Shown here in pieces: positions 34,368 to 52,330 of a stretch of 64,000 nucleotides of DNA. The number at the start of each line of letters is the position of its first letter. The stretch's first letter is position 1. The notes beneath the pieces were generated by a model. It saw only the letters and a list, made by a program, of their open reading frames with translations. It had not been told where the DNA came from and did no database searches. The stretch is from Roseovarius nanhaiticus (GTDB taxonomy: Bacteria; Pseudomonadota; Alphaproteobacteria; Rhodobacterales; Rhodobacteraceae), in contig NZ_FTNV01000001.1 in NCBI RefSeq assembly GCF_900156535.1, positions 1,798,001 through 1,862,000 on the forward strand. Direction: 5' to 3'. A program made the translations under genes and the position numbers.

Positions 34368-34397
34368 CCCTGACGAACACAGCAAAAGGATATTCCA

Positions 34398-35189: not shown

Positions 35190-35196
35190 ACCACCC

Positions 35197-35224
35197 GCCG
35201 GAGCGGCCCCCGTGCCGCTCCGGC
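35197..35224 (+). other. Intra-operon hairpin after the binding-protein gene
   Basis: Perfect 11-bp stem GCCGGAGCGGC / GCCGCTCCGGC with 6-nt loop and no T-run, between the binding protein and the first permease gene. Such hairpins commonly protect the upstream mRNA from 3' exonucleases. Confidence 0.7.
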
Positions 35225-35249
35225 CACCCATGACCCCGAAGGACGCGCG

Positions 35250-35939: not shown

Positions 35940-35941
35940 CG

Positions 35942-37357: not shown

Positions 37358-38542
37358 ATGACCAGATCCGTCGTCATCGCCTCAGGCGTTCGCACCGCCA
37401 TCGGAACGTTCGGCGGTGCGCTATCGGGGCATAGCCCATGCGATCTGGGCGCCGCCGTGGCTGCCGAGGCCATTGCGCGCGCCGGGGTCGAGCCGGGCGA
37501 TGTGCAGCAAACCGTGCTGGGCAATGTTCTGCACACCCAGCCCGAAGATATGTATATCAGCCGCGTCGTCGCCATGCGCGCAGGCGTGCCCGAGACCTCC
37601 CCGGCGCTGACGCTGAACCGGCTTTGCGGCTCGGGCCTGCAGGCGGTGGTGACCGCAGCCGAGCAGATCGTGCTCGGCAATGCCGATATCACGCTGGCCG
37701 GCGGCGCCGAGAGCATGAGCCGCGCGGGCCATTTGCTGACCCAGGCGCGCCACGGCGCCAAGATGGGCGACGTGCGTGCCGTGGACATGATGATCGGCGG
37801 TCTCACAGATCCGTTCGGCAATGGCCATATGGGCGTGACCGCCGAAAACATCGCGGCCCGGCATGGCATCGACCGCGCCGCGCAGGACGCCTTCGCCCTC
37901 GAATCGCACCGCCGCGCTGCTGCCGCGATTGCCGAAGGCCGGTTTGCCGATCAAATCCTGCCGCTGACGGTCAAGCAGGGCCGCAACGAGATCACATTCG
38001 ACACCGATGAGCATGTGCGCAGTGATCTGACGCCCGAGCGTCTGTCGGGCCTGCGCCCCGCCTTCGCCAAAGAGGGCAGCGTCACCGCGGGCAACGCTAG
38101 CGGCATCAACGACGGCGCCGCCGCGCTGGTGCTAATGGAGGAAGGCGCGGCTGAGGGCAGGGGCGCCAAGCCGCTCGCTCGCATCGTTTCCTACGGCCTT
38201 GGCGGCGTTGCGCCGGAAATCATGGGCATGGGCCCGGTGCCCGCGACGCGTCAGGCGCTGGCGCGCGCGGGGCTGCGTGTGAGCGATCTCGACGTGATCG
38301 AGAGCAACGAGGCTTTTGCCGCGCAGGCCTGCGCGGTAACGGCGGAGCTGGGCTTTGATCCGGCTCGCGTCAATCCCAATGGCGGCGCCGTTGCCTTGGG
38401 CCATCCTATCGGCGCATCGGGCGCGATCATCCTGGTCAAATTGCTGCATGAATTGCAGCGCGGTGGCGGCCGTTACGGCCTTGCCACCATGTGCATCGGC
38501 GGCGGGCAGGGCATCGCGGTCGTCGTCGAGCGCATGGCATGA
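37358..38542 (+). CDS. Acetyl-CoA acyltransferase / beta-ketothiolase (BktB-like)
   Basis: A 394-residue thiolase. Catalytic residues are C90 (LNRLCGSGLQ), a His in GHPIGASGA and a Cys in MCIGGGQG near the C-terminus. The sequence follows Cupriavidus BktB-type thiolases more closely than PcaF (starting MTRSVVIASGVRTAIGTFGG). In the aromatic island it could split acetoacetyl-CoA or beta-ketoadipyl-CoA into central metabolites. AAAGGAGA precedes ATG 37358. It converges on the LysR gene 38562-39452. Confidence 0.9.
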   Translation: MTRSVVIASGVRTAIGTFGGALSGHSPCDLGAAVAAEAIARAGVEPGDVQQTVLGNVLHTQPEDMYISRVVAMRAGVPETSPALTLNRLCGSGLQAVVTAAEQIVLGNADITLAGGAESMSRAGHLLTQARHGAKMGDVRAVDMMIGGLTDPFGNGHMGVTAENIAARHGIDRAAQDAFALESHRRAAAAIAEGRFADQILPLTVKQGRNEITFDTDEHVRSDLTPERLSGLRPAFAKEGSVTAGNASGINDGAAALVLMEEGAAEGRGAKPLARIVSYGLGGVAPEIMGMGPVPATRQALARAGLRVSDLDVIESNEAFAAQACAVTAELGFDPARVNPNGGAVALGHPIGASGAIILVKLLHELQRGGGRYGLATMCIGGGQGIAVVVERMA

Positions 38543-38561
38543 GGTGCCAGCGCGCCGCGCC

Positions 38562-39452
38562 CTAGAAAATCTTGCGCGCGACCCGCTGGGCGATGTTTAT
38601 GAAATGGCGCACATGCACGCCCTGCTCGTCCAGTCGGTAATTCACCGACAGGGCAGTCTGCGCCAAATCCGGCTCGATCCGCAGGAACTTGATCCCGTTG
38701 CGCTTGGCATTGCCGACCGAGGCGGGAACGATGCAGACGCCTTCGCCAATGGCCACGAGGCTGAGCGCGGTCTGAAGGTCCATGGTAAAGACGCGGTTGC
38801 GGATCTCGACCCCCTTGGCCGCGCAGGCGTCCAGAACGAAATCTGCGTAGCTGGGGCGCGGATATTCGGGATAAAGGATCATGTTGTACTGGGCGATCTG
38901 CGCAAGGCTGGCGCTGCGCCGCGGCCCGGTGTCGATCGTATCGGGAGCGGCCAAGACCAGTGGCTCTTCGCCCAGCTTCTTGACAGTGATCTCGACATCG
39001 ACAAGCGTGGGGCGCGCAAAGGCGACGTCAATGGCCCGGTTGACCAGCTGCCGGTGTAGCTGCGCGTTGTTCATGGGCAAAAGCGACAGGTTGATCTGCG
39101 GGTAATTCGCGCGAAAGGATTTGATGATGTTGGGCAGGATCCCGTAAGTCGCGGAGCCGACGAAACCGATCCTCAGCCGCCCCTCGGCGCCTTGGCCGAT
39201 GCGCCGAACTTCCAGTTCGGTATCCTCGATCTGGCTGAGGATATCGCGGCCCCGCACGTGCAGACGCTCCCCGGCCTGCGTCAGGGTGATCGAGCTGCGG
39301 CCACGACTGAAGAGAACCGCGCCCATATCCTCTTCCATCTGCTTGATCTGGCGCGACAGGGGCGGTTGCGCAATGCCCAGCCGCTCGGCCGCGCGGCCGA
39401 AATGCAGCTCGTCGGCGACGGCCATGAAATAGGTCAGCTGTTTGAGGTTCAT
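38562..39452 (-). CDS. LysR-family regulator (CatR/BenM-like context)
   Basis: A 296-residue LysR regulator beginning MNLKQLTYFMAVADELHFGRAAERL, with the effector domain following. Its position beside the catechol dioxygenase and ben genes suggests it senses muconate or benzoate like CatR, CatM or BenM. No cofactor residue decides this. It lies downstream of the dioxygenase terminator on the same strand. Confidence 0.88.
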   Translation of the reverse strand: MNLKQLTYFMAVADELHFGRAAERLGIAQPPLSRQIKQMEEDMGAVLFSRGRSSITLTQAGERLHVRGRDILSQIEDTELEVRRIGQGAEGRLRIGFVGSATYGILPNIIKSFRANYPQINLSLLPMNNAQLHRQLVNRAIDVAFARPTLVDVEITVKKLGEEPLVLAAPDTIDTGPRRSASLAQIAQYNMILYPEYPRPSYADFVLDACAAKGVEIRNRVFTMDLQTALSLVAIGEGVCIVPASVGNAKRNGIKFLRIEPDLAQTALSVNYRLDEQGVHVRHFINIAQRVARKIF

Positions 39453-39553
39453 GCATCACTTTCCAACAGTCGGACGACTGTATCCCAGGTTTGTCGGAAA
39501 GGCGTTAACTTTTTGCGGCGATCTCGCCGCTTTGACCGGTCTTGCATCCCAAC

Positions 39554-39585
39554 AAAAAAGAGCGGCCCTCGGGGGGCCGCTCTTT
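39554..39585 (-). terminator. Rho-independent terminator of the dioxygenase gene
   Basis: Stem of about 12 bp around AAAGAGCGGCCC / GGGCCGCTCTTT with a 5-nt loop. On the minus strand it ends in TTTTTT, 28 bp below the dioxygenase stop. Confidence 0.85.
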
Positions 39586-39612
39586 CGCTTGGTATCATAA
39601 GGGACGCGGCGA

Positions 39613-40479
39613 TCAGGCCGCCTTGGCTGCGGCTTCGGCCTTGAGTTTGAAGTCGAACTTCATGTGCAGGTCCGTGCCCAGCGATGGATCGGCCTTTTCG
39701 AACTTGCCGATCAGGCTGTCTTTGACGGCAAACACGCTGTCATCCTCCAGCCAGCCGCTATCGGCGTCAAAGATCTGGCTGACCAGGGGGCGATAGCCCT
39801 CCTTGGAAATGATGAAATGCATATGGCCGGGGCGCATCGCGTGGTGGCCCATATAGCGCAGTAGCTCGCCCGCGGTCTCATTGTCGGGGATGGGGTAGGG
39901 GACGGGGCGCACGGCGACAAACGCGTAATGGCCGTTCTCGTCCGTCTCGAAGCGACCGCGCAGGTTATATTCGGGCTGATCGGGATCGAGATTCTCGTAG
40001 ATGCCGTTGGGCGCGTCCTGCCAGACATCCATCGTCACACCGGCCAGCGGATTGCCGTCGGTGTCGTGGATATAGCCTTCGTAATAGGCGGTTTCCTCGT
40101 TGTCGAAATGCTTGATGATCGTCGACGCACCCTTGGGCAGGACGGGGGGATTCTCGCGGTAGAAGGGGCCAAGGACGGTCGACGCGCTCTCGCCCTTTTC
40201 AACAGGGTTGGTCAGCATGTCGGCCAGCACTTCGATGCCAAGGATATCGCCCAGAAGGATGAATTCCTGGCGGTTGTCGTCACAGGTCTGGCCCGCACGC
40301 TTGAGGAATTCGCAGGCCTGGATGAATTCGCTGTGCTGCAAGTTCACCTCCTTGCAGAAGTCGTGCATGTGGCGGATGAGCGCGGACATGATCTCGCGCT
40401 GGCGGTCGCTGATATCGCCATTCTTGCCCAGTGCGGCGACGACGACGTCGGTGATGTTGTCTTGTGATACGATGCCCAT
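39613..40479 (-). CDS. catA: Intradiol ring-cleavage dioxygenase (catechol/hydroxyquinol 1,2-dioxygenase type)
   Basis: A 288-residue non-haem Fe(III) intradiol dioxygenase. Iron ligands expected are Y161, Y195, H219 and H221 (in MRPGHMHF). It opens catechol to cis,cis-muconate. Features such as an N-terminal ITDVVVAAL, QEFILLGDILG and a C-terminal DDSVFAVKDSLIGKFE resemble hydroxyquinol or chlorocatechol dioxygenases, so strict CatA identity is not certain. ATG 40479 has GAGGAGC at proper spacing. It is divergent from the ben/pca-like operon. Confidence 0.85.
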   Translation of the reverse strand: MGIVSQDNITDVVVAALGKNGDISDRQREIMSALIRHMHDFCKEVNLQHSEFIQACEFLKRAGQTCDDNRQEFILLGDILGIEVLADMLTNPVEKGESASTVLGPFYRENPPVLPKGASTIIKHFDNEETAYYEGYIHDTDGNPLAGVTMDVWQDAPNGIYENLDPDQPEYNLRGRFETDENGHYAFVAVRPVPYPIPDNETAGELLRYMGHHAMRPGHMHFIISKEGYRPLVSQIFDADSGWLEDDSVFAVKDSLIGKFEKADPSLGTDLHMKFDFKLKAEAAAKAA

Positions 40480-40577
40480 TTGGATGCTCCTCAAACGATA
40501 CGGACTGACACATGAGGGCGCATGCGTCCCTCCTCCCTAGTGCTGCGCCACCTTCGACCAAATGACCGCCCGGCCCA

Positions 40578-40593
40578 ATACCCGGACCGGTAT
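40578..40593. promoter_or_regulatory. Possible LysR half-site pair ATAC-N8-GTAT
   Basis: ATAC and GTAT in inverted order with 8 bp between, in the divergent dioxygenase / 126-aa-gene promoter. BenM/CatM sites are ATAC-N7-GTAT, so this is one base off and remains tentative. Another ATAC half-site follows at about 40600. Confidence 0.3.
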
Positions 40594-40695
40594 CAGGCGA
40601 TACTTTGACCGGACGGCGCGGATGCTGTCGGGTCGACGGTGAACGCCCGCGGCGCGCCCCAGGGCCCTGCGGAACGCGAAAGAAGGACGCTGCGC

Positions 40696-41076
40696 ATGAT
40701 CGACACACTCAAGACAATGCAAGAGGCGCTGAACGGCACGCCCCATCTGCGGCGGCTGGGCCGGCTATTCTCGGAAACGGTCCTCTTGGGCGTGGACGAG
40801 GACGAGTATTACCTGACCTTCGAGAAGGGCGAGCTGGTGGACATCTCCGAAGGCCCCAGCCGCAAGACGCCTTACAGGTTCTCGTATCACACGGACAAGG
40901 ACGCGCTGCAGAGGTTCTGGGAGCCGCTGCCGGCGCCCGGATTTCACGACATTTTTGGCCTGGTCAAGATCGGGCGCGGGCGCATTGCCGGGGATATCCT
41001 GGTGCTGGTCAAGAACCTGCGCTTCTTCAAGGAATTCATGATGTTGCCGCGCGACATGAAGGGAGGCCAGTCATGA
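40696..41076 (+). CDS. Small SCP2-like protein of the benzoate operon
   Basis: A 126-residue protein I cannot name firmly. It has an alternating beta pattern (VLLGVDEDEYYLTFEKGELVD) and a helix-rich tail rather like SCP2 sterol-binding domains. No signal peptide. ATG 40696 follows GAAGGA. It overlaps the next gene, an enol-lactonase-like hydrolase, by 4 nt, so it may act with that enzyme or bind an aromatic or lipid ligand. It is not CatC (which is about 95 residues with different motifs). Confidence 0.7.
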   Translation: MIDTLKTMQEALNGTPHLRRLGRLFSETVLLGVDEDEYYLTFEKGELVDISEGPSRKTPYRFSYHTDKDALQRFWEPLPAPGFHDIFGLVKIGRGRIAGDILVLVKNLRFFKEFMMLPRDMKGGQS

Positions 41077-41921
41077 GCGTCGAGCCAATCACCGGCCGCT
41101 ACCTGACGGCCATGGTCGAGGGCGCCCCGCGCCGTATCTATTTCGAGGAGGCGGGTGAGGGTACTCCGGTGCTCTGCCTGCACACGGCGGGCGCGGACAC
41201 GCGGCAGTGGCGCCATCTGATGAACGACGCCGAGATCACCGCGCAGCACCGCCTGATCGCCTTCGACATGCCGCTGCACGGCAAATCCCTGCCGCCCGAA
41301 GGGTTCGAGACCGAAGAGTACCTGCTGACCACAGACGCCTATATCGAGACGATCCTGGCGGTGATGGACGGCCTCGGCCTGGATAAGCCGATCCTTGCGG
41401 GCTGTTCGATGGGCGGGCGCATCGCGCTGCAACTGGCCGCGCTGCACCCGGATCGCTTTGCCGGCTTCATCGCCATCGAGGCCAGCGATTTTCAGCCCGC
41501 TTGGTACGATATCGACTGGTTCCACCGCCCCGATGCGCATGGCGGTGAAATGGGTGCGGCGCTGGTCTCGGCCAATATCAGCCCCCATGCCCCCAATTCC
41601 GAGCGATGGAACACGCTCTGGATGTTCATGCAATCGGGGCCGGGCGTCTTTCGCGGTGACCTCAGCTTTTATACCCGCGACGACAGCCTGATCGCGCGCC
41701 TCGGCCAGATCGACACCGCAAAAACGCCGGTGCATATCATCGTCGGCGCCTACGATCTGACCTGTACGCCCGAAGATGCCAAGCGGACGGCAGATGCCAT
41801 CCCCGGCGCCACGCTCGCCGTCATGGACGAGTTGGGCCATTTCCCGATGTCCGAACATCCCGAAGGCTTCCGTCCATTTTTCATCGAGGCATTGGCCAAG
41901 ATGCCGAAGAGCGCCGCCTAA
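41073..41921 (+). CDS. Alpha/beta hydrolase, 3-oxoadipate enol-lactonase-like
   Basis: A 282-residue alpha/beta hydrolase with nucleophile elbow GCSMGG (S112), acid in VGAYDLTC and His in DELGHFPMSE. In this cluster it most likely opens beta-ketoadipate enol-lactone, the PcaD step, though this is inferred from context. Coupled to the upstream gene by ATGA and abutting benE downstream. Confidence 0.8.
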   Translation: MSVEPITGRYLTAMVEGAPRRIYFEEAGEGTPVLCLHTAGADTRQWRHLMNDAEITAQHRLIAFDMPLHGKSLPPEGFETEEYLLTTDAYIETILAVMDGLGLDKPILAGCSMGGRIALQLAALHPDRFAGFIAIEASDFQPAWYDIDWFHRPDAHGGEMGAALVSANISPHAPNSERWNTLWMFMQSGPGVFRGDLSFYTRDDSLIARLGQIDTAKTPVHIIVGAYDLTCTPEDAKRTADAIPGATLAVMDELGHFPMSEHPEGFRPFFIEALAKMPKSAA

Positions 41922-43139
41922 GTGAGCGCCCCCGCCGATACCAGCGCGGCCCCGGCGCATGGCCGCAGCCTGATGCGCGATGCTTCGGCCTCGGCCATCG
42001 CGGCGGGGTTCCTGGCGGTGCTGGTATCGAATGCGGGACCGCTCTTGATCTTCTTGCAGTCGGCGCGGGCAATGGGCGTGTCCGAGACGGTGTTTTCCGG
42101 GTGGGTCGCCGCGATCTCGCTGACGGCGGGGCTGGCCTCGATCGGGCTGAGCCTTGCGTTTCGGGCGCCCGTTCTGGTGGCCTGGTCGGCGCCGGGCGTG
42201 GTCCTGTTGGGCACCGTGGGGCCGGGCCTGCCGTTTTCGGATATCGTGGGTGCCTATCTGGTCTCGGCGGCCATTATCCTGATCATCGGGGTCAGCGGGC
42301 TCTTTGACCGGCTTTTGTCCCTGGTCCCTCCGGCAGTGGCGAGCGGGATGATGGCGGGTATCCTTTTCACCTTCGGCGCCAGCGCGATGGGCGGCTTTGC
42401 GACGGCGCCGCTGATGGTGGGCATTCTCTTGCTGGCCTTCGTGGTGCTGTCGGTCATTACGCCGCGTTTTGCGCTGATCTGGCTGCTTGCGGGCGTTCTG
42501 ATCCTGACATTTGCGTCCGCTGAGAGCGGACAGGGCGCGCCGCGGATCTTTCCGCAATTGACCGCGACGTGGCCGACCTTTTCGACTGCCGCGCTTTTGG
42601 GGCTGGCGCTGCCGCTGACGCTGACCACGTTGACGGGGCAGTTCCTGGCCGGGCTCGCGATCTTGCGGACATACGATTTTCACCTGCCCGCGCGGCCCGT
42701 GCTGGTGGTGGCCAGCCTTGCCTCGTTTGCCGGGGCTTTTTTCGGCGGGATCACCACTGCGCTGGCGTCAATCACCATGGCCCTTGGCGCCAGCGCCGAG
42801 GCGCATCCCGATCCGCGCCGCCGCTATGTGGCGGGCGTAGCAACGGGCGGCTTTTTCGTGCTCTGCGCCATCTTCGCTGGCACCATCGGCTGGGCCATGC
42901 TGCGCATCCCCGCCGAGCTGATCGCACTCTTGGCCGGTCTGGCCCTTCTTGGCGCCATCGCCAAGGGGCTGTCGGACATGCTGGGCAGCGGGGCCGATAT
43001 GCAGGCAGGCCTGCTGACCTTCATCACAACGGCCTCGGGTGTGACCATTCTCGATATAGGCTCGGCGTTCTGGGGCATCCTCGTCGGTGTCATCGCCGTT
43101 CACACGGCCCGTCTGACCAACCGCCTGCGCGGCGCCTGA
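41922..43139 (+). CDS. benE: Benzoate/proton symporter BenE
   Basis: A 405-residue membrane transporter with about 12 hydrophobic segments and the family motifs FLAVLVSNAGPLLIF, VAWSAPGVVLL, LTLTTLTGQFLAGLAILR and GGITTALASITMALG. BenE imports benzoate with protons. The start is GTG at 41922, directly after the hydrolase TAA. Followed 38 bp later by a BKACE gene. Confidence 0.92.
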   Translation: MSAPADTSAAPAHGRSLMRDASASAIAAGFLAVLVSNAGPLLIFLQSARAMGVSETVFSGWVAAISLTAGLASIGLSLAFRAPVLVAWSAPGVVLLGTVGPGLPFSDIVGAYLVSAAIILIIGVSGLFDRLLSLVPPAVASGMMAGILFTFGASAMGGFATAPLMVGILLLAFVVLSVITPRFALIWLLAGVLILTFASAESGQGAPRIFPQLTATWPTFSTAALLGLALPLTLTTLTGQFLAGLAILRTYDFHLPARPVLVVASLASFAGAFFGGITTALASITMALGASAEAHPDPRRRYVAGVATGGFFVLCAIFAGTIGWAMLRIPAELIALLAGLALLGAIAKGLSDMLGSGADMQAGLLTFITTASGVTILDIGSAFWGILVGVIAVHTARLTNRLRGA

Positions 43140-43177
43140 ATGCGCGCTCCTTCACCTTCAACGACAGGACGATCCAC

Positions 43178-44023
43178 ATGACAAACCCATGTATCCTATG
43201 TGTCGCGATCACCGGCTCCTTGCCGACCAAAGAGAACAACCCCGCCGTGCCGATCACGATCGAAGAGCAGATCGAAAGCACGCATGAGGCCTTCGAGGCG
43301 GGCGCGAGCATCGCCCATTGCCATGTGCGCGACGATGCGGGCAAACCCACCGCCGACCCCGAGCGCTTTGGCCGCCTTCTGGAAGGGTTGCGGCAGCATT
43401 GTCCCGGCATGATCGTCCAGCTGTCGACCGGCGGGCGCTCGGGCGCGGGGCACGAGCGGGGCGGCATGCTGCCGCTGCGGCCCGACATGGCGTCGCTCTC
43501 TGTCGGGTCCAACAACTTTCCGACCCGCGTTTACGAGAACGCGCCCGACCTGGTCGATTGGCTGGCCGGCGAGATGCGCACCTATGATGTGCTGCCCGAG
43601 ATCGAGGCGTTCGATCTAAGCCATATTCATCAGGCTGTGGCGATGCATGCCGACGGACGTCTGCCGCGCAAGCTCTATGTGCAGTTCGTGATGGGCGTAA
43701 AGAATGCGACGCCCGTCGACCGCGATATCTTTGACTACTACGTCAAGACGATGCAGCGCATCGCGCCGGATGCCAACTGGTGCGCGGCGGGGATCGGGCG
43801 CCACCAGCTGACGGTGAATGAATGGGCTATCGCGGCAGGCGGGCACACCCGTACCGGCCTTGAGGATAACGTGCGCCTCGACAAGGACCGGCTGGCGCCC
43901 TCGAACGCGGCATTGGTCGCCCGCGCCGCAGCGCTTTGCGAGAAATACGAGCGCCCCGTCGCCACGTGGCAGCAAGCCCGCGATATCCTGGGTCTGGCGC
44001 AGCCGCGCCAGGGCGCCCGGTAA
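43178..44023 (+). CDS. Beta-keto acid cleavage enzyme (BKACE, DUF849 family)
   Basis: A 281-residue TIM-barrel metalloenzyme of the family of 3-keto-5-aminohexanoate cleavage enzyme (Kce). The zinc-binding H47-x-H49 (IAHCHVRDD), QLSTGGRSG and the later THTRTGLEDN-type HTRTGLEDNVRLDK segment are conserved. BKACE enzymes react a beta-keto acid with acetyl-CoA to give acetoacetate and a shortened acyl-CoA. Its place in a benzoate/catechol cluster suggests it acts on beta-ketoadipate. ATG 43178 was chosen because the upstream open frame overlaps benE. Confidence 0.9.
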   Translation: MTNPCILCVAITGSLPTKENNPAVPITIEEQIESTHEAFEAGASIAHCHVRDDAGKPTADPERFGRLLEGLRQHCPGMIVQLSTGGRSGAGHERGGMLPLRPDMASLSVGSNNFPTRVYENAPDLVDWLAGEMRTYDVLPEIEAFDLSHIHQAVAMHADGRLPRKLYVQFVMGVKNATPVDRDIFDYYVKTMQRIAPDANWCAAGIGRHQLTVNEWAIAAGGHTRTGLEDNVRLDKDRLAPSNAALVARAAALCEKYERPVATWQQARDILGLAQPRQGAR

Positions 44024-44148
44024 CGAGTTCGCGCCTTTGGGTATCAGGCCTTACCGAAGCGGTATTGGACTTGGCCCCCGCAGAGGCGCAACCTCTTAAC
44101 CAGCACAAAGAGCGCTAAGACAAGCGAAGATCAAAAGGGGATACGGCT

Positions 44149-45309
44149 TTGCCCAAGATCGAGAACATCAGCACGAGGATCGTCGATTTGCCCACCATCC
44201 GGGGGCATGTCCTGTCGATGGCGACGATGACGGTTCAGTCCGTGGTGCTGGTGCATGTCCACTTCTCGGATGGCTCGGTCGGTATCGGCGAGGGCACGTC
44301 CATTGGCGGGCTCAGCTATGGCGCCGAAAGCCCCGAAAGCATCGCCTCGGCGATCGAGACCTATATCGCCCCGGCCATCATCGGCCGCGACGGCGATAAC
44401 GTGAACGCCGCCCGCCACGCCGCTGAGCGCGCGGTCACGGGCAACCCCATCGCGCGCTGCGCAGTCGAAAACGCCCTTTGGGACGGCCTCGGCAAGCGCG
44501 CGGGCAAGTCCGTGGCCGAGCTTTTCGGCGGTGCGCTGCATACCGGACTGGAAGTGGCGTGGACGCTGGCCTCGGGCAATGCGGCGCAGGATATCGAAGA
44601 GGCCATGTCGATGCTCGAGCAACGCCGCCATCGCCAGTTCAAGCTGAAGGTCGGCAAGCGCGCGGTGCGCGAAGATATCGCACACGTGGCCCGCATCAAA
44701 AGCGCGCTGGGCGACCGGGCCAAGGTAACGGTCGACGTCAATCAGGCCTGGAGCCTTCATGACGCCCGCATCGGCCTGGCCGGTCTGCAGGAAATCGGCG
44801 TCGACATGGTCGAGCAGCCCATCGCGGCCTGCCATCGCCATGCGCTGGGCACGCTGACGCGTGACTACCAGATCGCCGTCATGGCCGATGAGGCGCTGCG
44901 CGGTCCCGAGGATGCGCTGAACCACGCGTGCGAGCATGCGGCGGACGCTTTTGCGGTCAAGATCGCGCAATCGGGCGGCCTCAGCCGTGCGGCAGAGGTG
45001 ATCGCCATCGGGCAGGCCGCCGGCATTGGCCTTTATGGCGGGACCATGCTGGAATCGGGCGTTGGCACTGCCGCTGCGCTGCAACTTTTTGCGACTGTGG
45101 GCCATCTGGCCTGGGGGACCGAGCTGTTTGGTCCGCTCCTGTTCAAGGACGACATTTTGACGACCCCGCTGGTTTATTCGGACTTCCAAGTCCATGTTCC
45201 GGCGGGACATGGCAGCGGCGTGACGCTGGATCAGGACAAGGTTGATTTCTACACGCGGGGCAAAACCCGGGCGGTGCCTACGCACACACACATGAAGGCA
45301 AGCGTCTGA
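44149..45309 (+). CDS. catB: Muconate cycloisomerase
   Basis: A 386-residue enolase-superfamily enzyme that turns cis,cis-muconate into muconolactone. Catalytic K165/K167 (FKLKVGK), metal ligands D196, E222 and D247, and K271 are all present. No ATG is available at the family N-terminus; a TTG at 44149 with AAGGGG upstream starts MPKIENISTRIVDLP. It sits between BKACE and benA. Confidence 0.93.
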   Translation: MPKIENISTRIVDLPTIRGHVLSMATMTVQSVVLVHVHFSDGSVGIGEGTSIGGLSYGAESPESIASAIETYIAPAIIGRDGDNVNAARHAAERAVTGNPIARCAVENALWDGLGKRAGKSVAELFGGALHTGLEVAWTLASGNAAQDIEEAMSMLEQRRHRQFKLKVGKRAVREDIAHVARIKSALGDRAKVTVDVNQAWSLHDARIGLAGLQEIGVDMVEQPIAACHRHALGTLTRDYQIAVMADEALRGPEDALNHACEHAADAFAVKIAQSGGLSRAAEVIAIGQAAGIGLYGGTMLESGVGTAAALQLFATVGHLAWGTELFGPLLFKDDILTTPLVYSDFQVHVPAGHGSGVTLDQDKVDFYTRGKTRAVPTHTHMKASV

Positions 45310-45357
45310 AACCCGGAGGAGGGGACAGACAGTGACCAACGAGGAGGAGAAGACATC

Positions 45358-46752
45358 ATGCTGACACTGCCAAAACTGGACGAGCTTGATCGCCGTTTGG
45401 AGAACATCGTCGAGGACGATCCCGAGAATGGCGTCTTTCGCGCACGCCGCGACATGTTCACCGATCCGGACCTTTTCGAGCTGGAGATGAAGCACATCTT
45501 CGAGGGCAACTGGATCTACATGGCGCATGAAAGCCAGATCCCGAACCCCGGTGACTATTTCACGCTGCATATGGGCCGCACGCCTGTCGTCATCACCCGA
45601 GACAAGGACGGCGAGCTGCACGCGCTGGTCAATGCCTGCTCGCACCGGGGCGCCATGCTCTGCCGTTTCAAGCGCCGCAACCAAAAGACATTTACCTGCC
45701 CCTTCCACGGCTGGACCTTCTCGAACACCGGCAAGCTTCTGAAGGTCAAGGACCCCAAGGGCGCAGGATATCCCGAGCAGTTCAACCAGGATGGCAGCCA
45801 CGATCTGACGCGCGTTGCCAAATTCGGCAATTATCGCGGTTTCCTCTTCGGCTCGCTCAACCCTGATGTGGAAGAGCTGGAGGATTACCTGGGCGAGGCC
45901 AAGAAGATGATCGACATGGTCGCCGACCAGTCGCCCGACGGTCTCGAAGTGCTGCGCGGCGCGTCAACCTACACCTACGATGGCAACTGGAAGCTGCAGG
46001 CCGAAAACGGCGCCGATGGCTATCACGTCTCGGCCGTGCATTGGAACTATGTGGCCACCACCGGCCGCCGCACGCAGGACGGCAAGGAAGACAAGATCAA
46101 GGCCACCGATGCGTCCAAATGGGCCAAGCAGAAGGGCGGCTTTCATTCCTATGTGAACGGTCACCTGCTGCTCTGGACGACCTGGGCCGACCCTACCAAT
46201 CGCCCCAACTACGCCAAGCTGGGCGAGTGGACCGAGCAGTTCGGCAAGGAAAAGGCCGAGTGGATGACGGGCGTTCTGCGCAACCTTTGCCTCTATCCCA
46301 ACGTCTTCCTGATGGACCAGTTCTCTAGCCAGCTGCGTATTTTCCGGCCCATTTCGGTCGATCAGACCGAAGTGACGATCTATTGCATCGCCCCCAAGGG
46401 CGAGAGCAAGGAAAGCCGCGCGCATCGCATCCGCCAATACGAGGATTTCTTCAACGCCTCTGGCATGGCGACGCCGGACGATACCGAGGAATTCCGTGCA
46501 ACCCAGCGCGGCTATCAGGGCAGTGCCCACGCCAAGTGGAACGACCTGACCCGCGGAGCGACCCAGTGGATCGAAGGCCCCGACGAGGACGCCAAGGCGC
46601 TGGGGATCAACCCGATCCTGTCGGGTGCGCGCACCGAGGATGAGGGCCTTTTCGTGATCCAGCACAGCCAATGGGCCGAGCGGATGCGGGACGCGGTCAG
46701 CGCCGAGCGCGAGACCCTTTCGGGCGAAGAACAGCAAGTGGCAGCGGAGTGA
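45358..46752 (+). CDS. benA: Benzoate 1,2-dioxygenase large subunit
   Basis: A 464-residue Rieske oxygenase alpha subunit. The Rieske cluster ligands are C94, H96, C114 and H117 (CSHRG and CPFHGWTF); the mononuclear iron site lies in the [10 protein letters not shown] region. With BenB and BenC it converts benzoate to the cis-diol carboxylate. Strong family features and the BenBCD neighbours support benzoate as substrate, though toluate oxygenases (XylX) are close relatives. Confidence 0.95.
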
Positions 46753-46757
46753 ATGAT

Positions 46758-47288
46758 ATGAGCACCAACACCATGGAAAAACCCGCCTCGGACGCCAAAG
46801 CGATCAGCTATGACGAGATCCAGCAATTCCTCTTTGCCGAGGCGCGTTGCCTTGATGATCGGGACTGGGATGCGTGGCTGGAATTCTACCACGACGATTG
46901 TGAATTCTGGATGCCCGCCTGGGATGATTTCGACACGCTGACCGAGGATCCGCAATCGGAGATGTCGCTGATCTGGTATCCGGACAAGTCCGGCATCGAG
47001 GATCGTGTGTTCCGCATCAAGACGGACCGCTCTTCGGCCACGTCGCTGCCCGAGCCGCGCACGGCGCATTACCTCGCCAATATCGAGGTGCTTTCGCGCG
47101 AGGGCACGCAGATCAAGCTGCGCTTCAACTGGCAAACGCTCAGCTTCCGCTACGGCCAGACCGACCGGCATTGGGGTACGTCGTTCTATACGCTGGATGT
47201 CAGCGGCAAGACGCCCCTGATCGCGGCCAAGAAAGTGGTGCTCAAGGACGATCACATTCACCACGTCGTCGACGTGTATCACACCTGA
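46758..47288 (+). CDS. benB: Benzoate 1,2-dioxygenase small subunit
   Basis: A 176-residue beta subunit of the ring-hydroxylating oxygenase, an SnoaL/NTF2-like fold protein that stabilises the alpha3beta3 complex. ATG 46758 lies 5 bp after the benA stop. Followed by a 92-bp gap with a strong hairpin before benC. Confidence 0.93.
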   Translation: MSTNTMEKPASDAKAISYDEIQQFLFAEARCLDDRDWDAWLEFYHDDCEFWMPAWDDFDTLTEDPQSEMSLIWYPDKSGIEDRVFRIKTDRSSATSLPEPRTAHYLANIEVLSREGTQIKLRFNWQTLSFRYGQTDRHWGTSFYTLDVSGKTPLIAAKKVVLKDDHIHHVVDVYHT

Positions 47289-47334
47289 GCCCGGCCAGTT
47301 TCCCGGACCAGACCCACCATCACGTCAAGACCTG

Positions 47335-47361
47335 CGCGATCCGGCCCGATGCCGGATCGCG
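47335..47361 (+). other. Hairpin between benB and benC
   Basis: Perfect 11-bp arms CGCGATCCGGC / GCCGGATCGCG with a 5-nt loop, ending 6 bp before the benC Shine-Dalgarno GGAGG. No T-run. It may tune the ratio of reductase to oxygenase. Confidence 0.65.
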
Positions 47362-47380
47362 GCGGGGGAGGAGTATGCAA

Positions 47381-48397
47381 ATGGCCTATCAGGTCGCACT
47401 GAATTTCGAGGATGGCGTCACCCGCGTGATCGACGTGGATGAGGACGAGAAAGTCACCGACGCCGCCTTCCGCAACAAGATCAACTTGCCCATGGATTGC
47501 CGCGATGGCGTCTGCGGCACCTGCAAATGCAAGTGCGAAGAGGGTGAGTACGAGCTTGAGTTCTACATGGACGAGGCGATGACCGAGGAAGAGGCCGAAG
47601 AGCGCTTTGTTCTCGCGTGTCAGATGACGGTCGAGAGCGATTGCATCATTTCTGTCCCGGTCTCGTCCGAGATCTGCAAGACCGGCGCGCAGACCGTTCG
47701 CGGCGCCGTGCAGGCCATCGACGCGCTGTCGGACACCTCCTACAACCTCACGGTCAAGCTGCAGAAGGCGATGGGTTTCCTGCCCGGCCAATACGTCAAT
47801 ATCAGCGTGCCGGGCACCGACGCGCACCGCTCCTACTCATTTTCGTCGCGCCCCGGCGCCGAGGAGGCGACGTTTCTTATCCGCAACCTCAAGGGCGGCG
47901 TGATGTCCAGCTATCTCGAAGCCGGATCGACCGGCGACGAGGTCGAGCTGACCGGCCCGATGGGCGCGTTCTATCTGCGCAACCTGGAGCGGCCCCAGCT
48001 GTGGCTGGCGGGCGGCACCGGCCTGGCGCCGTTTCTGTCGATGCTGGAGGCGTTGGCCGAACAGGGGACCGAGCAGCAGATCACGCTCTATTACGCCGTG
48101 ACGAACGCCGCTGACCTGGTGGAATTGGCGCGCGTGCAGGAGTTGGCCGAAAAGATCGGCACGGTGCGGGTGATCACGATCCTCGCGTCGGACGATGACG
48201 ATCACGAGCGCAAGGGGTTTGTCACCGATCACGTCACCGCGGACGAGCTGAATGGCGGCGATGTCGATGTGTATCTGTGCGGCCCGCCCCCGATGGTCGA
48301 GGCAGTGCGCCAGCATTTCAAATCGCTGGGCACGGAGCCTGCAAATTTCTACTTCGAAAAATTCACGCCCAATGATGCGCTCGAGGCTGCTGCATGA
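47381..48397 (+). CDS. benC: Benzoate 1,2-dioxygenase electron transfer component
   Basis: A 338-residue NADH reductase with an N-terminal [2Fe-2S] ferredoxin domain (C40, C45, C48, C80), an FAD domain with RSYSFSS and a C-terminal NAD domain with GGTGLAPFLSM and YLCGPPPMVEA. ATG 47381 gives normal spacing to GGAGG at 47367-47371; ATG 47375 is an alternative. Coupled by ATGA to benD. Confidence 0.94.
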   Translation: MAYQVALNFEDGVTRVIDVDEDEKVTDAAFRNKINLPMDCRDGVCGTCKCKCEEGEYELEFYMDEAMTEEEAEERFVLACQMTVESDCIISVPVSSEICKTGAQTVRGAVQAIDALSDTSYNLTVKLQKAMGFLPGQYVNISVPGTDAHRSYSFSSRPGAEEATFLIRNLKGGVMSSYLEAGSTGDEVELTGPMGAFYLRNLERPQLWLAGGTGLAPFLSMLEALAEQGTEQQITLYYAVTNAADLVELARVQELAEKIGTVRVITILASDDDDHERKGFVTDHVTADELNGGDVDVYLCGPPPMVEAVRQHFKSLGTEPANFYFEKFTPNDALEAAA

Positions 48398-49173
48398 TGG
48401 CACGTTTCGAAGGAAAATGCGCCGTCATCACGGGCGCAGGGCAGGGCATCGGCCGCCGCGTGGCCGAGCGTATGGCAGCCGAGGGCGCCGAAGTGCTGGT
48501 GGTCGACCGCTCGGACGCGCGCCACGATACGGTCGCGTCCATCAAGGACGCGGGGGGCACGGCGCACGAGCTGGCCGTCGATCTGGAAACCTACGAGGGC
48601 TGCAAAGCGGCCATCGCCAAGGCGGTCGAGTTGTGGAGCCGGGTCGATATCCTGGTGAACAATGTCGGCGGCACCATCTGGGCCAAGCCGTTCGAGTATT
48701 ACGAGCCCGCGCAGATCGAGGCCGAGATCAGCCGCTCGCTGATGCCGACGCTATATGGCTGTCACGCTGCGCTTGAGCCGATGCTGAAGGCCGGGTCGGG
48801 CGTCATCGTCAATGTCAGCTCGATCGCCACGCGCGGCCTGAACCGCGTGCCCTACGGCGCGGCCAAGGGCGGCGTGAATGCGATCACCGTCAACCTCGCC
48901 TGGGAAGTGGCCGAGCGCGGCATCCGCGTCGTTGCCACCGCGCCCGGCGGAACCGAGGCACCGCCCCGGCCCGTGCCGCGCAATCCCAACGCTTCGGAAG
49001 AACAGCGCGAGGACTGGTACCAGACGCTGGTCGATCAGACGCTGCAATCAAGTTTCATGAAACGCTATGGCACGCTCGATGAACAGGCAGGGGCGATCTT
49101 GTTCCTGGCCTCGGATGACGCGTCATACATCACCGGCGTCACGCTGCCTGTCGGCGGCGGCGACCTCGGATAA
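48394..49173 (+). CDS. benD: Benzoate diol dehydrogenase BenD
   Basis: A 259-residue short-chain dehydrogenase that oxidises the benzoate cis-diol carboxylate and releases CO2 to give catechol. The cofactor motif TGAGQGIG, NNVGG, and the YGAAK catalytic Tyr-Lys are present. Overlaps benC by 4 nt. It completes benABCD. Confidence 0.94.
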   Translation: MMARFEGKCAVITGAGQGIGRRVAERMAAEGAEVLVVDRSDARHDTVASIKDAGGTAHELAVDLETYEGCKAAIAKAVELWSRVDILVNNVGGTIWAKPFEYYEPAQIEAEISRSLMPTLYGCHAALEPMLKAGSGVIVNVSSIATRGLNRVPYGAAKGGVNAITVNLAWEVAERGIRVVATAPGGTEAPPRPVPRNPNASEEQREDWYQTLVDQTLQSSFMKRYGTLDEQAGAILFLASDDASYITGVTLPVGGGDLG

Positions 49174-49215: not shown

Positions 49216-50391
49216 ATGAAGAAACTGACACAAACGGCCGCGGCGGCGCTGATTGCCGCACTCGGCACATCCTCGGCCTATGCCGAAGAGATCAAAGTGG
49301 GGCTGCTTTTGCCCTATTCCGGCGTCTATGCGTCGCTGGGCAACGAGATCGAGGCGGGCTTTCGCCTTGGCCTCGAGACATTCGGCGGCGAGACCGACGA
49401 CACGTTCGAGATCGTGACCGAAGACACTGAAGTGAAGCCGCCTGTCGCACTGGGCAAGGCCAAGAAACTGGTCCTGCAGGACGAGGTTGACGTGATGGTC
49501 GGCATCGTCAGCTCGGGCGTTCTGGGCGCCGTGCGGGACTTCGTCGACGGCGCCAAGGTGCCGCTGATCGTCGCCAACGCAGGCAACGATGAGGCCACCG
49601 GCGAGGCATGCAGTGCCTATATCACGCGCCTTTCGTTCTCGAACCAGCAGGTCAACCGCCCGATGGGCCAGCACCTTTATGATCAAGGTGTGCGCAAGGT
49701 CTTTACCATGGCATCGGACTATGCGGCCGGCCACCAGATGATCGGCGCCTTCGCCGAGGCATTCGAGGCCGCCGGCGGCGAGATCGTCGGACAGGAATTC
49801 ACCCCCTTCCAGAAAACGCAGGATTTCGGCCCCTATATGGCCAATGCACAGGCCAGCGGCGCGGATGCGGTCTATGTCTTCTATGCGGGCGGCGAGGCGA
49901 TTTCCTTCGTCAAGCAGTATGACAGCTTTGGTCTCAAGGCCGATCTGCCGCTTTATGGTGCGGGCTTTTTGACATCGCCCCTCTACGTCAACGCAGAAGG
50001 CCCGGCGGCCATCGGCGTGATCGCGGCGCTGCACTACGTGCCGACCATCGAAAACGAGGCCAACAGCGTCTTTGTAGAGGCTTTCAAGGCACAGAACGAC
50101 CGCGCGCCCTCCGAATTTGCGGTGCATGGCTATGACGCGGCCCGCGCACTTGTGATGGCCTCCGCTGGCGGGGCAAGCGACCGCGAGGCGCTGGCCACCG
50201 CGCTGAGCAAGACCTCCTTCGACGGCCCGCGCGGTGCGACCTCGATCGACCCGGCGACCAACAATATCGTCCAGCCGATCTATGTCTACGAGACCGTCGC
50301 CAATGAAAATGGCGAAGGCCTGACCCAGAAGGTGCTGGCCACGCTGCCCGCAACTGCGGATCCGGCCAACGGCTGCTCGCTGGCCAACTGA
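49216..50391 (+). CDS. Liv-type ABC transporter substrate-binding protein
   Basis: A 391-residue periplasmic binding protein of the LivK family with a signal peptide (about residues 1-23, ending SSAYA). The fold suits branched-chain amino acids or aromatic acids; its place directly after benD suggests benzoate or related compounds. A stem-loop follows before livH. Confidence 0.9.
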   Translation: MKKLTQTAAAALIAALGTSSAYAEEIKVGLLLPYSGVYASLGNEIEAGFRLGLETFGGETDDTFEIVTEDTEVKPPVALGKAKKLVLQDEVDVMVGIVSSGVLGAVRDFVDGAKVPLIVANAGNDEATGEACSAYITRLSFSNQQVNRPMGQHLYDQGVRKVFTMASDYAAGHQMIGAFAEAFEAAGGEIVGQEFTPFQKTQDFGPYMANAQASGADAVYVFYAGGEAISFVKQYDSFGLKADLPLYGAGFLTSPLYVNAEGPAAIGVIAALHYVPTIENEANSVFVEAFKAQNDRAPSEFAVHGYDAARALVMASAGGASDREALATALSKTSFDGPRGATSIDPATNNIVQPIYVYETVANENGEGLTQKVLATLPATADPANGCSLAN

Positions 50392-50403
50392 GACAGGCAA
50401 TCG

Positions 50404-50429
50404 GGCCGCGTGCCATTCGGCGCGCGGCC
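50404..50429 (+). other. Intra-operon hairpin after the Liv-type binding protein
   Basis: An 11-bp stem GGCCGCGTGCC / GGCGCGCGGCC (one G-U pair) with a 4-nt ATTC loop between the binding protein and LivH-like permease. Similar in place to the 35197-35224 hairpin. Confidence 0.6.
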
Positions 50430-50458
50430 TCTCTCAATTTTCCGAAAGGTGACGCAAG

Positions 50459-51322
50459 ATGGATGTCGGTTTCTGGCTCTTTCAAACGCTGAACGCATTG
50501 CAGCTGTCGATGCTGCTCTTCCTGCTTTCCGTCGGGCTGACGGTCATTTTCGGATTGATGCATTTCGTGAACCTCGCCCACGGGTCCCTCTACGCGTTCG
50601 GCGCCTATGTCGCCGCTAGCACAGCAGGCGTGGTCGGCTATTGGGGCGCGTTCATCCTGGGGCCCATCGCTGTCGCTGCGATCGGGTTCATCCTCTACGC
50701 AACGCTGATCCGGCGGATGCGCAAATCCGGCCCGATGGCCCAGGTTCTGGTCACCTTCGGTCTGATCTTCGCCCTGTTGGACATCACGCGGATCATCTGG
50801 GGCGATCTGGCACTGGGCATCCAGCTGCCGCCGATCCTGTCGGGGCGCCTCTCGCTGGGCGCGCTGGAATATCCGCTTTACCGCGTGTTCATCATCGTTC
50901 TGGGTCTCGTTATCTTCGCTGCATTGTCCCTGGTCCTCAGCCGCACGCAGATCGGCGCCATGATCCGGGCCGGCGTCGACAATGACAACATGGCCGCCTG
51001 CCTTGGCATCAATGTCGAGAAGCTTTTTTTCGCGGTCTTCTGCGTCGGCTGCGCGTTGGCTGGCCTTGCGGGTGTCGTCGCGGCGCCCATCTTGTCGGTC
51101 ACGCCCGATATGGGCCTTCAGATCCTAATCCCGACGCTGATCGTCATCGTGATCGGCGGGCTTGGCTCGCTCAAGGGCGCGTTCATCGGCTCGCTGATCT
51201 ACGGCTTCGTGCAGACTTTTGGTGCGGTTCTGGTGCCGTCGCTGGCCTCGGTCATCGTCTATGCGCTGCTGGCGGTCGTGCTGGTGACGCGGCCCACTGG
51301 CCTCTTTCCGGCAAAGGTGTAA
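50459..51322 (+). CDS. LivH-type ABC permease
   Basis: A 287-residue inner-membrane permease with about eight helices; the start FGLMHFVNLAHGSLYAFGAY-type motif and the LGINVEKLFFAVF region match LivH. It works with LivM and two ATPases to transport the substrate of the preceding binding protein. Confidence 0.92.
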   Translation: MDVGFWLFQTLNALQLSMLLFLLSVGLTVIFGLMHFVNLAHGSLYAFGAYVAASTAGVVGYWGAFILGPIAVAAIGFILYATLIRRMRKSGPMAQVLVTFGLIFALLDITRIIWGDLALGIQLPPILSGRLSLGALEYPLYRVFIIVLGLVIFAALSLVLSRTQIGAMIRAGVDNDNMAACLGINVEKLFFAVFCVGCALAGLAGVVAAPILSVTPDMGLQILIPTLIVIVIGGLGSLKGAFIGSLIYGFVQTFGAVLVPSLASVIVYALLAVVLVTRPTGLFPAKV

Positions 51323-51325
51323 CTC

Positions 51326-52330
51326 ATGTTCAGGCACACTCCTCTTCGTATCGTGACATTGCTGTCCCTTGTTGCGGGCATGATCGTCGCGGCCTTCACC
51401 GCAGGCTATTTCGGGCTTGAAATCCTCGCCGAGATCATCGTCCTGGCCATCCTCGTCGTCGCGCTCGATCTGGTGGCGGGCTTCGGCGGCATGGTCTCGC
51501 TCTGCCACGGAGCCCTCTTGGGCTTTGGCGCATACGCCTTCGCGGTGCTCACCGGGCATTTCGGCTGGGACGCGTTTCCCGCGATGGCGGCGGCAATTGC
51601 GCTGACCGGCATGACCGGCTGGATTATCGGCGCGATCTGCTCGGGCAGTCACGGGATCTATTTTATCATGGTCACGCTGGCCTTCGGGCAAATGGCCTAT
51701 TCCTTTGTTTTCGGCAGCACCTTTCTGGGCGGCGATGACGGCCTCGGGGGGATTTCGCGCCCCGATCTGTCGGCGATCGGCGTCAATCTGAACGACAGCC
51801 GGAGCTTCGTGCTCTACGCGCTGGTCTGCGCGGTGATCGCCTACCTTTTCGCCGCAGCCTTCTTGCGCTCGGGCGTCGGGCGCAGCCTTGTGGGCGTCAA
51901 GCAAAGCGAGCAGCGCATGCGCGCGCTCGGCCTCGTGCCGTGGCGCACCAAGGCGCATGCTTTCGGGGTGTCGGGCCTTATCGCAGGTTTGGCGGGTGTT
52001 CTGGCGGCGCAGCACATCATGTATATCTCGCCGGGCCTCTTGTCCTGGACAGTATCGGGCGAGGCACTGGTCGTCGTTATCCTGGGCGGTCTAGGCACGC
52101 TCGTCGGCCCGATAGTGGGCGCCGTGGCCTTCGTCTTGATCAAGCATGAGGTCAGCGCCATTACACCCTACTGGCACCTTGTCGTAGGTATCATTCTCAT
52201 CGCCGTCGTGATGAGCCGGGCCAACGGCATGTTCGGCTTTGTCGAGGCGCGCCTCGAGGCGCGGCGCAAACGGTCGATACCAGGCAGCAAGGCGACGAGC
52301 GATCTGGAAGGGGAGGTGCGCGATGCTTGA
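51326..52330 (+). CDS. LivM-type ABC permease
   Basis: A 334-residue second permease with helices across the length and the conserved GGMVSLCHGALLGFGAYAF and VVILGGLGTLVGPIVGA stretches. Its last bases overlap the next ATPase gene by 8 nt. Confidence 0.92.
   Translation: MFRHTPLRIVTLLSLVAGMIVAAFTAGYFGLEILAEIIVLAILVVALDLVAGFGGMVSLCHGALLGFGAYAFAVLTGHFGWDAFPAMAAAIALTGMTGWIIGAICSGSHGIYFIMVTLAFGQMAYSFVFGSTFLGGDDGLGGISRPDLSAIGVNLNDSRSFVLYALVCAVIAYLFAAAFLRSGVGRSLVGVKQSEQRMRALGLVPWRTKAHAFGVSGLIAGLAGVLAAQHIMYISPGLLSWTVSGEALVVVILGGLGTLVGPIVGAVAFVLIKHEVSAITPYWHLVVGIILIAVVMSRANGMFGFVEARLEARRKRSIPGSKATSDLEGEVRDA

Follow-up and report, generated by a model that had tools for sequence, protein, structure and literature searches.

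A small protein of predicted SCP2 fold and its partner hydrolase as candidates for the missing CatC step in a benzoate island of Roseovarius nanhaiticus

The benzoate island described here lies in a window of 64,000 nucleotides, the whole stretch of Roseovarius nanhaiticus DNA that was analysed and to which all coordinates refer. At its edge stands a thiolase gene (37358..38542, forward strand). The label "BktB-like", given to it in a sequence-only reading of the same DNA, is fair since the product exceeds the cut-off of NF006552 (627.1 bits for 565); its score with the BktB equivalog is 604.4 bits, below the cut-off of 725. Two genes on the reverse strand follow, encoding a BenM/CatM-like regulator of the LysR type (38562..39452; PF03466 and PF00126, the BenM and CatM models being matched below cut-off) and an intradiol dioxygenase in the role of CatA (39613..40494; PF00775 and PF04444). 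All further genes are on the forward strand. ORF126 (40696..41076) encodes a protein of 126 residues with a predicted SCP2 fold, a candidate muconolactone isomerase that would replace CatC. Its end is overlapped by 4 bases by the start of HYD (41073..41921), an alpha/beta hydrolase (PF00561) and candidate 3-oxoadipate enol-lactonase. Then come the benzoate/H+ symporter BenE (41922..43139; TIGR00843, 311.1 bits, cut-off 203.4), a BKACE, the putative 3-oxoadipate:acetyl-CoA acetyltransferase (43178..44023; PF05853; NF053568, 491.9 bits, cut-off 350; PDB 3fa5, 487.9 bits), and the muconate cycloisomerase CatB (44149..45309), which passes TIGR02534 with 472.2 bits (cut-off 334.95). The benzoate dioxygenase genes close the series: BenA (45358..46752; TIGR03229, 789.7 bits, cut-off 780.95), BenB (about 46773..47288) and BenC (47375..48397), respectively 78% and 70% identical to the products of the annotated benB and benC of Sulfitobacter D7, and BenD (48394..49173; NF040811, 421 bits, cut-off 380). 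BenABCD, the dioxygenase, CatB, the hydrolase, the BKACE and the thiolase had all been named in the sequence-only reading, and all are in frame at the positions given there. That reading was silent on the 126-residue gene that separates the dioxygenase gene from the hydrolase gene, as well as on a LIV-type ABC transporter operon located beyond its end (49216..53754, forward strand), probably for benzoate uptake. The permease and ATPase genes of this operon are named from position and reading only. In relatives, a LIV operon is found between benD and lysR, and its binding protein is 66-79% identical where aligned.

CatC, the textbook enzyme, is absent from the island, as had been noticed from the sequence, and also from the rest of the assembly: searched for with the PF02426 model only, it gave no match there (15 candidates scored). 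No PcaD over cut-off was found in the assembly either. In other genomes, strong PF02426 matches (95-130 bits) also occur where no CatB exceeds its cut-off (G046, G094, G135, G017, and G033), so that CatC-like proteins also have other uses. Weak matches (52-64 bits), none of them on a contig with CatB, are probably not CatC. Apart from the dioxygenase gene, no PF00775 gene was found in the genome, hence no protocatechuate 3,4-dioxygenase is available. The dioxygenase of the island scores 144 bits with the catechol 1,2-dioxygenase model TIGR02439 (cut-off 392) and is closest to hydroxyquinol 1,2-dioxygenases (212.8 bits with PDB 8r2x versus 109.7 with the catechol dioxygenase 2azq). It might be imagined from this proximity that the ring is cleaved at the level of hydroxyquinol, with a maleylacetate route in which CatC would not be needed. 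However, this is very improbable: catechol is the product of BenABCD, CatB is encoded next door, no maleylacetate reductase is seen among the island genes, and the same kind of cluster is present in Sulfitobacter D7, which grows on plain benzoate according to PMC9873259.

With catechol as the substrate, attention turns to the two genes that follow the dioxygenase. ORF126 has no Pfam match up to an E value of 10 and no NCBIfam match, and the CatC family model PF02426 does not recognize it. In plasmid records it is annotated as "hypothetical protein" in 39 cases out of 42 and has no feature in the remaining three. A chance open reading frame is ruled out by the differences from the copy in genome G130 (26, 28 and 63 of 126 at the three codon positions) and by conservation in 65 loci. 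The structure model (pLDDT 94.9) has the SCP2 fold. This fold is known for lipid binding, not for isomerisation, and going by their titles, its PDB representatives serve as carriers or as appended domains. ORF126 differs from sterol carriers of this fold (2cx7, UbiJ 6h6o) in having no sequence match to PF02036, in belonging to a catabolic operon, and in having a hydrolase beside it at every checked locus fetched with ORF126. Among four distant homologues, one matches PF02036 weakly (E 0.015, 16.1 bits, cut-off 21.3). H84, D85 and K91 are found in all of 80 cat-type sequences, a set that includes repeats of the same genomes, and K57 in 78 of these 80 versus 0 of 15 distant sequences.

HYD adjoins ORF126 in 65 of 65 loci, with the 4-base overlap in 60. 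Its residues S112, D228 and H256, which we take from the family pattern to be a Ser-Asp-His triad, are invariant in the 27 sequences aligned. Fold comparison gives alpha/beta hydrolases, an esterase being the best match and the enol-lactonase 2xua standing at rank 4 among the structural neighbours, in a list where the overall rmsd is about 5-9; the cap (residues 141-200) is poorly predicted (pLDDT 46-59). HYD would thus share with PcaD/CatD enol-lactonases (2xua, TIGR02427) the fold, the triad and the supposed product. However, it reaches only 79.6 bits with TIGR02427, far below the cut-off of 255.85, and shares 28% identity with the PcaD-like protein of G130.

The distribution of these genes carries the argument. 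CatB exceeds its cut-off in 15 of 198 genomes of the same family, of which 12 have ORF126 without CatC, two have CatC without ORF126, one has both, and none lacks both. Fisher tests on the family genomes give p 0.029 for the exclusion of ORF126 and CatC and p 1.4e-16 for the association of CatB with ORF126, values that are descriptive only because the genomes are related. In the genome having both, the two genes belong to separate clusters; the clusters of G130 read BKACE-PcaD-like-Ben-CatA-CatC-CatB and CatA-ORF126-HYD-BKACE-CatB. Of the 17 CatB places over cut-off, 13 have ORF126 and four have CatC at a distance of at most 11.8 kb, and none is near both. ORF126 and CatC are mutually exclusive at CatB clusters, and the pairing of ORF126 with HYD is constant in the fetched loci. 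A set of 49 named genomes with ORF126, drawn from the first 50 of 65 named loci and overlapping partly with the family sample, agrees with this picture: CatB is present in 45, the four others being MAGs, and PF02426 is over cut-off in two, both times weakly and elsewhere in the genome. Against it, two of 15 genomes with a strong ORF126 within the family sample are devoid of CatB, G113 (90% complete, its contig having the same length as that of L051, one of the four MAGs) and G005 (99% complete); in the latter, the ORF126-HYD pair adjoins an apparent ABC operon of the peptide type. In a class-wide sample, CatB was found in 3 of 385 genomes, two of them new, and in the two CatB genomes outside the family CatC is beside CatB. 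On plasmids, all 13 records having CatB at 60% identity or more carry ORF126, and none of these is among the 60 records listed of 138 with CatC. In 23 plasmid records ORF126 reaches 55% or more, and ten of them do not recur in the list of 60 CatB records. Of these ten, those from Shinella (L164) and Sagittula (L200) do bear a CatB, of the 39% type or annotated, and a third, from Xanthobacter (L154), shows no CatB in its 13 kb.

Considering these data, the best explanation is that the island leads from benzoate to central metabolism and departs from the textbook catechol branch in two blocks, which are replaced. BenABCD would convert benzoate to catechol, the dioxygenase would open the ring, and CatB would cyclise the product to muconolactone. 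ORF126 and HYD would then do the work of CatC and CatD/PcaD, from muconolactone through 3-oxoadipate enol-lactone to 3-oxoadipate. Because the pair stands in the place of CatC, here and in many marine relatives, it probably performs the missing step; on the strength of co-occurrence, a probability of about 0.7 may be given to this replacement. The island shares with the textbook branch BenABCD, CatB, the regulator, the transporters and the expected intermediates. It differs in having ORF126 and HYD and no match to CatC or PcaD/CatD models, a CatA of the hydroxyquinol-dioxygenase kind, and a BKACE instead of PcaIJ/PcaF. Sulfitobacter D7, for which CatC is reported missing in PMC9873259, has ORF126 and HYD inside its ben cluster. 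In G263 (L195), a natural fusion joins distant homologues of the two proteins in a single open frame of 454 codons. No description of a CatC replacement was found in the open PMC literature, as far as its text was accessible, and PMC9873259 was the only article found to state the gap. Co-occurrence names two genes for a gap left in a marine benzoate degrader, one of them with no Pfam or NCBIfam match. If this is true, a pathway hole would be filled in many Rhodobacteraceae and some Rhizobiales, and new parts would become available for the production of muconolactone or 3-oxoadipate.

Within the pair, ORF126 would be the muconolactone isomerase and HYD the enol-lactonase. This assignment of ORF126 is tentative, at slightly less than even odds; if correct, the SCP2 fold would gain an enzymatic role and the annotation of ORF126 would be corrected. 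It is rather unlikely, although several observations fit, that HYD alone converts muconolactone to 3-oxoadipate, its catalytic base moving the double bond before hydrolysis, with ORF126 as a non-catalytic, SCP2-like accessory subunit or ligand carrier. Such a role would agree with the carriers and appended domains of the PDB, with the maintenance of the pair in unrelated contexts, and with the stronger conservation of HYD among cat-type members (71-85% versus 50-71% for ORF126). The natural fusion of G263 (L195) is as easily understood for a subunit as for an enzyme. Against this stands the conserved polar set that ORF126 of cat clusters has of its own (K57, H84, D85, K91). It is unlikely, in turn, that an unrecognised protein encoded at another place in the genome supplies the CatC activity, ORF126 and HYD ensuring the enol-lactonase step only. 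The use of PF02426 alone leaves room for such a protein, and in G112 (L145) a small protein, which presumably is akin to dimeric alpha/beta-barrel monooxygenases, follows HYD. However, all 17 CatB places track either ORF126 or CatC, and two plasmid islands read whole contain no further unknown gene within the cluster.

A point against the main reading is that distant ORF126-HYD pairs are also found outside cat clusters, so that ORF126 may accompany the hydrolase family of HYD in general. In Rhodococcus, Peribacillus, and Agrobacterium, the gene after such a pair encodes an aldehyde dehydrogenase of succinate-semialdehyde type. It is possible, though somewhat doubtful, that ORF126 represents a new and non-homologous type of muconolactone delta-isomerase on the SCP2 fold, forming with HYD a general module from butenolides to 4-oxo acids; Rhodobacteraceae would have recruited it for CatC and CatD, and the distant pairs would convert a simple butenolide to succinic semialdehyde.

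The sequence-only reading had placed the BKACE where CatC and PcaIJ would be expected. The CatC gap is better explained by ORF126 and the hydrolase: the BKACE acts later and is present in clusters that bear CatC (L141, L144, and L171), which rules it out as a CatC substitute. Its proposed reaction, from 3-oxoadipate and acetyl-CoA to succinyl-CoA and acetoacetate, finds support in the NF053568 equivalog match. The context also favors it: a BKACE and a PcaF-like thiolase never occur together in the fetched cat loci, and of the 45 loci (out of 65) that contain a BKACE, 19 have ScoA immediately behind it. In at least 10 of the 26 others the sequence obtained stops some 500 bases or less from the BKACE, so that absence of ScoA cannot be told. 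The genome's 3-oxoacid CoA-transferase would then activate acetoacetate, and a thiolase would split acetoacetyl-CoA. Regarding the CoA-transferase said to be lacking, none is encoded in the island; however, one A/B pair exists elsewhere (G000:C1:1117123-1118402). It exceeds the cut-offs of the joint models for PcaI/ScoA and PcaJ/ScoB, which do not tell these enzymes apart, and its subunit A shares 64% identity with the PcaI encoded next to PcaF in L170. A canonical finish may therefore be envisaged, with this pair as PcaIJ, the thiolase as PcaF and the BKACE redundant. This is quite improbable, as the closest solved relatives of the pair are SCOT subunits (3cdk, 340.4 bits), relatives found directly behind a BKACE show 79-87% identity in 18 of 19 cases, and a PcaF-like thiolase occurs in 0 of 45 BKACE loci. 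Sulfitobacter D7 has no BKACE in a 28-kb stretch, and PcaIJ and PcaF are the enzymes named for it in PMC9873259.

The BKACE route is not new. A BKACE has likewise been proposed as the 3-oxoadipate enzyme in the catechol cluster of R. eutropha H16 (catBCD-COG3246; PMC6449761) and in the protocatechuate pca-kce clusters of Methylobacterium (PMC8963497 and PMC12379598). As these texts describe them, those clusters differ from the island in that catC, or the set of pca genes leading to 3-oxoadipate, is retained. The beta-ketoadipate group of BKACEs is cited as G4 in PMC8963497; in a table of PMC4922564, beta-ketoadipate is placed under G3, and the entry of G4 is "negatively charged". The genome encodes a second BKACE (G000:C2:542030), which was discarded as a partner: it reaches 170.7 bits with NF053568 (cut-off 350) and lies beside a carnitine 3-dehydrogenase (708.8 bits, cut-off 592). 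Finally, the thiolase at 37358..38542 is a candidate for the cleavage of acetoacetyl-CoA; it is not conserved in the clusters of relatives, a homologue (41-42% identity) occurring in two of 65 related loci.

The benzoate/catechol island (37358-49173 of the window) carries the gene set first read from it, that is a thiolase, a LysR regulator, an intradiol dioxygenase, a hydrolase (HYD), BenE, a BKACE enzyme, CatB and BenABCD, with a LIV-type ABC operon (49216-53754) downstream of BenD. Between the dioxygenase and HYD lies a gene of 126 codons, ORF126 (40696-41076), left unnamed in the sequence-only reading; its last 4 bases also belong to the start of HYD. That reading had also found the muconolactone isomerase CatC missing from the island. 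A PF02426 profile search bears this out and extends it to the whole assembly (3,698,163 bases, 14 contigs, 99.99% complete), where it gave no match (15 candidates scored). The enol-lactonase model TIGR02427 (PcaD) has 14 matches in the assembly, HYD being one of them, and none passes the cut-off. Upstream of the island (32200-36694), an FAD oxidoreductase weakly resembling the sarcosine oxidase alpha subunit and an ABC transporter that reads as polar-amino-acid-type apparently form an unrelated uptake operon.

Among 198 genomes of the same family, ORF126 homologues occur in 19 (15 strong, 137-281 bits; 4 weak, 30-43 bits), and PF02426 matches in 12, of which 11 are over the cut-off. CatB passes the TIGR02534 threshold in 15 of the 198, at 17 places. 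None of these 15 CatB genomes lacks both proteins: 12 have only ORF126, two (G023 and G171) only CatC, and one (G130) has both, in an ORF126-type and a CatC-type cluster. At the 17 CatB places, either ORF126 (13) or CatC (4) lies within 11.8 kb and the two are never together, an exclusion for which Fisher p values are descriptive only, the sampled genomes being related. A class-wide sample of 385 genomes adds two CatB genomes outside the family, with CatC adjoining CatB in both.

A collection of named genomes yields 65 ORF126 loci, mainly in Rhodobacteraceae and their relatives, with Mesorhizobium, Pseudaminobacter, Aquamicrobium, Roseibium and others as further hosts. HYD adjoins ORF126 in all 65, with a 4-base gene overlap in 60, and the dioxygenase is found within the fetched stretch in 61. 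CatB and CatC were searched in the 49 genomes of the first 50 loci, some of which also belong to the family sample (for instance L026 is G052 and L051 is G113). CatB exceeds the cut-off in 45 of the 49; the titles of the other four (L045, L051, L062, L074) mark them as metagenome assemblies. PF02426 passes its cut-off in two, at 60.6 and 51.9 bits and never on the CatB contig; for comparison, CatC genes adjoining CatB score 116-139 bits. In G005 (L135), a genome 99% complete in which CatB was not found, an ORF126-HYD pair 70-74% identical to that of the island neighbours genes that look like an ABC operon of the peptide type. CatB was likewise not found in G113 (L136), where a BKACE fragment (52%, residues 214-275) lies downstream of HYD. 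At three loci (L093, L094, L095), all in genomes where no CatB exceeds the cut-off, CatC is accompanied by a PcaD-like hydrolase and an SDR, beside a gene that seems to resemble a short-chain fatty acid transporter; might this set belong to another lactone pathway?

On plasmids, all 13 records with a CatB at least 60% identical to that of the island also carry ORF126, and among the CatB matches listed (the best 60, with 114 further) the 47 ranked below them are not ORF126 records. The 60 CatC records listed, out of 138, include none of these 13. On the opposing side, ORF126 at 55% identity or more occurs on 23 plasmid records, ten of which are outside the best 60 CatB matches listed. Three of these ten were opened. 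In two of them, from Shinella (L164) and Sagittula (L200), a CatB of a different type adjoins ORF126; in a third, from Xanthobacter (L154), no cat gene lies within the 13 kb fetched. The island is itself plasmid-borne in Sulfitobacter CB2047 (pSpoCB-3, L199) and Phaeobacter inhibens (pP88_c, L201), one of them typed conjugative, and in P. inhibens P88 one plasmid bears two dioxygenase-ORF126-HYD sets.

The island dioxygenase (39613-40494) scores 212.8 bits to hydroxyquinol dioxygenase versus 109.7 to catechol dioxygenase, and sits amid BenABCD and CatB as the sole intradiol dioxygenase found. Because it is the only PF00775 match in the assembly, protocatechuate 3,4-dioxygenase is absent. In relatives, ORF126 comes with a dioxygenase of this type, at 59-80% identity to the island enzyme, against 27-32% for the CatA of five CatC clusters. 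The chemistry of BenABCD, CatB and BKACE is established. In the proposed pathway, the dioxygenase would accept catechol despite its likeness to hydroxyquinol dioxygenases, ORF126 would isomerise and HYD hydrolyse, in place of CatC and possibly PcaD; further down, a CoA-transferase would act on acetoacetate and the thiolase would cleave acetoacetyl-CoA.

The claim that the island has no PcaI/J stands for the island, but a CoA-transferase A/B pair exists elsewhere in the genome, along with a weak third PF01144 match under the cut-off. This pair passes models common to PcaI/ScoA and PcaJ/ScoB, and its A subunit has SCOT proteins as its nearest relatives of solved structure. The assembly holds two PF05853 BKACE genes, the island copy and one adjoining carnitine 3-dehydrogenase (L149, G000:C2:533000-552900), a context fitting dehydrocarnitine cleavage, another would-be source of acetoacetate.

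The suggested action of the island BKACE on 3-oxoadipate gains support from its 491.9 bits on NF053568, '3-oxoadipate:acetyl-CoA acetyltransferase' (cut-off 350); the close solved structures 3fa5, 3chv and 3no5 were all deposited without function. BKACE is found in 45 of the 65 related loci. A ScoA-like match begins 12-89 bases past the BKACE match in 19 of the 45; several of the other stretches end too early to show one. Of these 19 matches, 18 are 79-87% identical to the CoA-transferase A subunit of the island's own genome, and the one in L073, which is partial, is 52% identical. PcaF-like thiolases occur in two of the 65 loci, neither with BKACE. Where the cluster is of the CatC type, PcaF without BKACE is seen in L170 and L143, and BKACE without PcaF in L141, L144 and L171. 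On pSpoCB-3 the order is CatB-BenABCD-LIV-LysR-dioxygenase-ORF126-HYD-BKACE-ScoA-ScoB-BenE, a cluster that by its gene content would span the steps from uptake to acetoacetyl-CoA. Locus context thus agrees with BKACE acting on 3-oxoadipate. Such a role was already suggested, in passages of PMC6449761, for a catBCD-linked COG3246 protein of R. eutropha H16, and proposed, in passages of PMC8963497 and PMC12379598, for Methylobacterium pca clusters. With regard to BKACE, then, the island follows a variant already known. The observed gene content is confirmed and the interpretation partly supported, in that the BKACE role has support but the route is not new. For the replacement of CatC, no prior description was found in the open PMC papers searched, and it is this part that appears undescribed. 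The island encodes a familiar pathway in what appears to be a new form, to which one undescribed protein family is the likely key.

According to passages of PMC9873259, benzoate can serve Sulfitobacter D7 as its only source of carbon, and every catechol-branch gene save CatC was found in this strain; PcaIJ and PcaF are among the genes that the authors name. Its plasmid p5SUD7 carries CatB-BenABCD-LIV-LysR-dioxygenase-ORF126-HYD, with BKACE absent from that 28-kb stretch. If the authors are right on PcaIJ and PcaF, the replacement of CatC would be independent of BKACE.

Distant ORF126-HYD pairs (ORF126 24-34% identical) occur in Rhodococcus, Peribacillus, Agrobacterium larrymoorei, Martelella and others. 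In four of five distant plasmid loci opened (L152, L153, L155, L163; Rhodococcus, Peribacillus and Agrobacterium), the next gene is an aldehyde dehydrogenase, annotated in three as succinate-semialdehyde dehydrogenase; in the fifth (Martelella, L162) it lies past an ABC operon. On a bold reading, a butenolide would be isomerised there and its enol-lactone hydrolysed directly to a semialdehyde, the same chemistry as from muconolactone to 3-oxoadipate. A phylum-wide sample supplied 11 further stretches that were opened. Apart from two cat clusters (L188, L189), only L196 shows a dehydrogenase of this kind, at a distance of 1.7 kb, and the remaining eight lack it, a scarcity that restricts the semialdehyde link to one branch. 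L195 (G263, 9400-10761, plus strand) holds a natural fusion, in which distant homologues of ORF126 and HYD are joined in a single 454-codon open frame.
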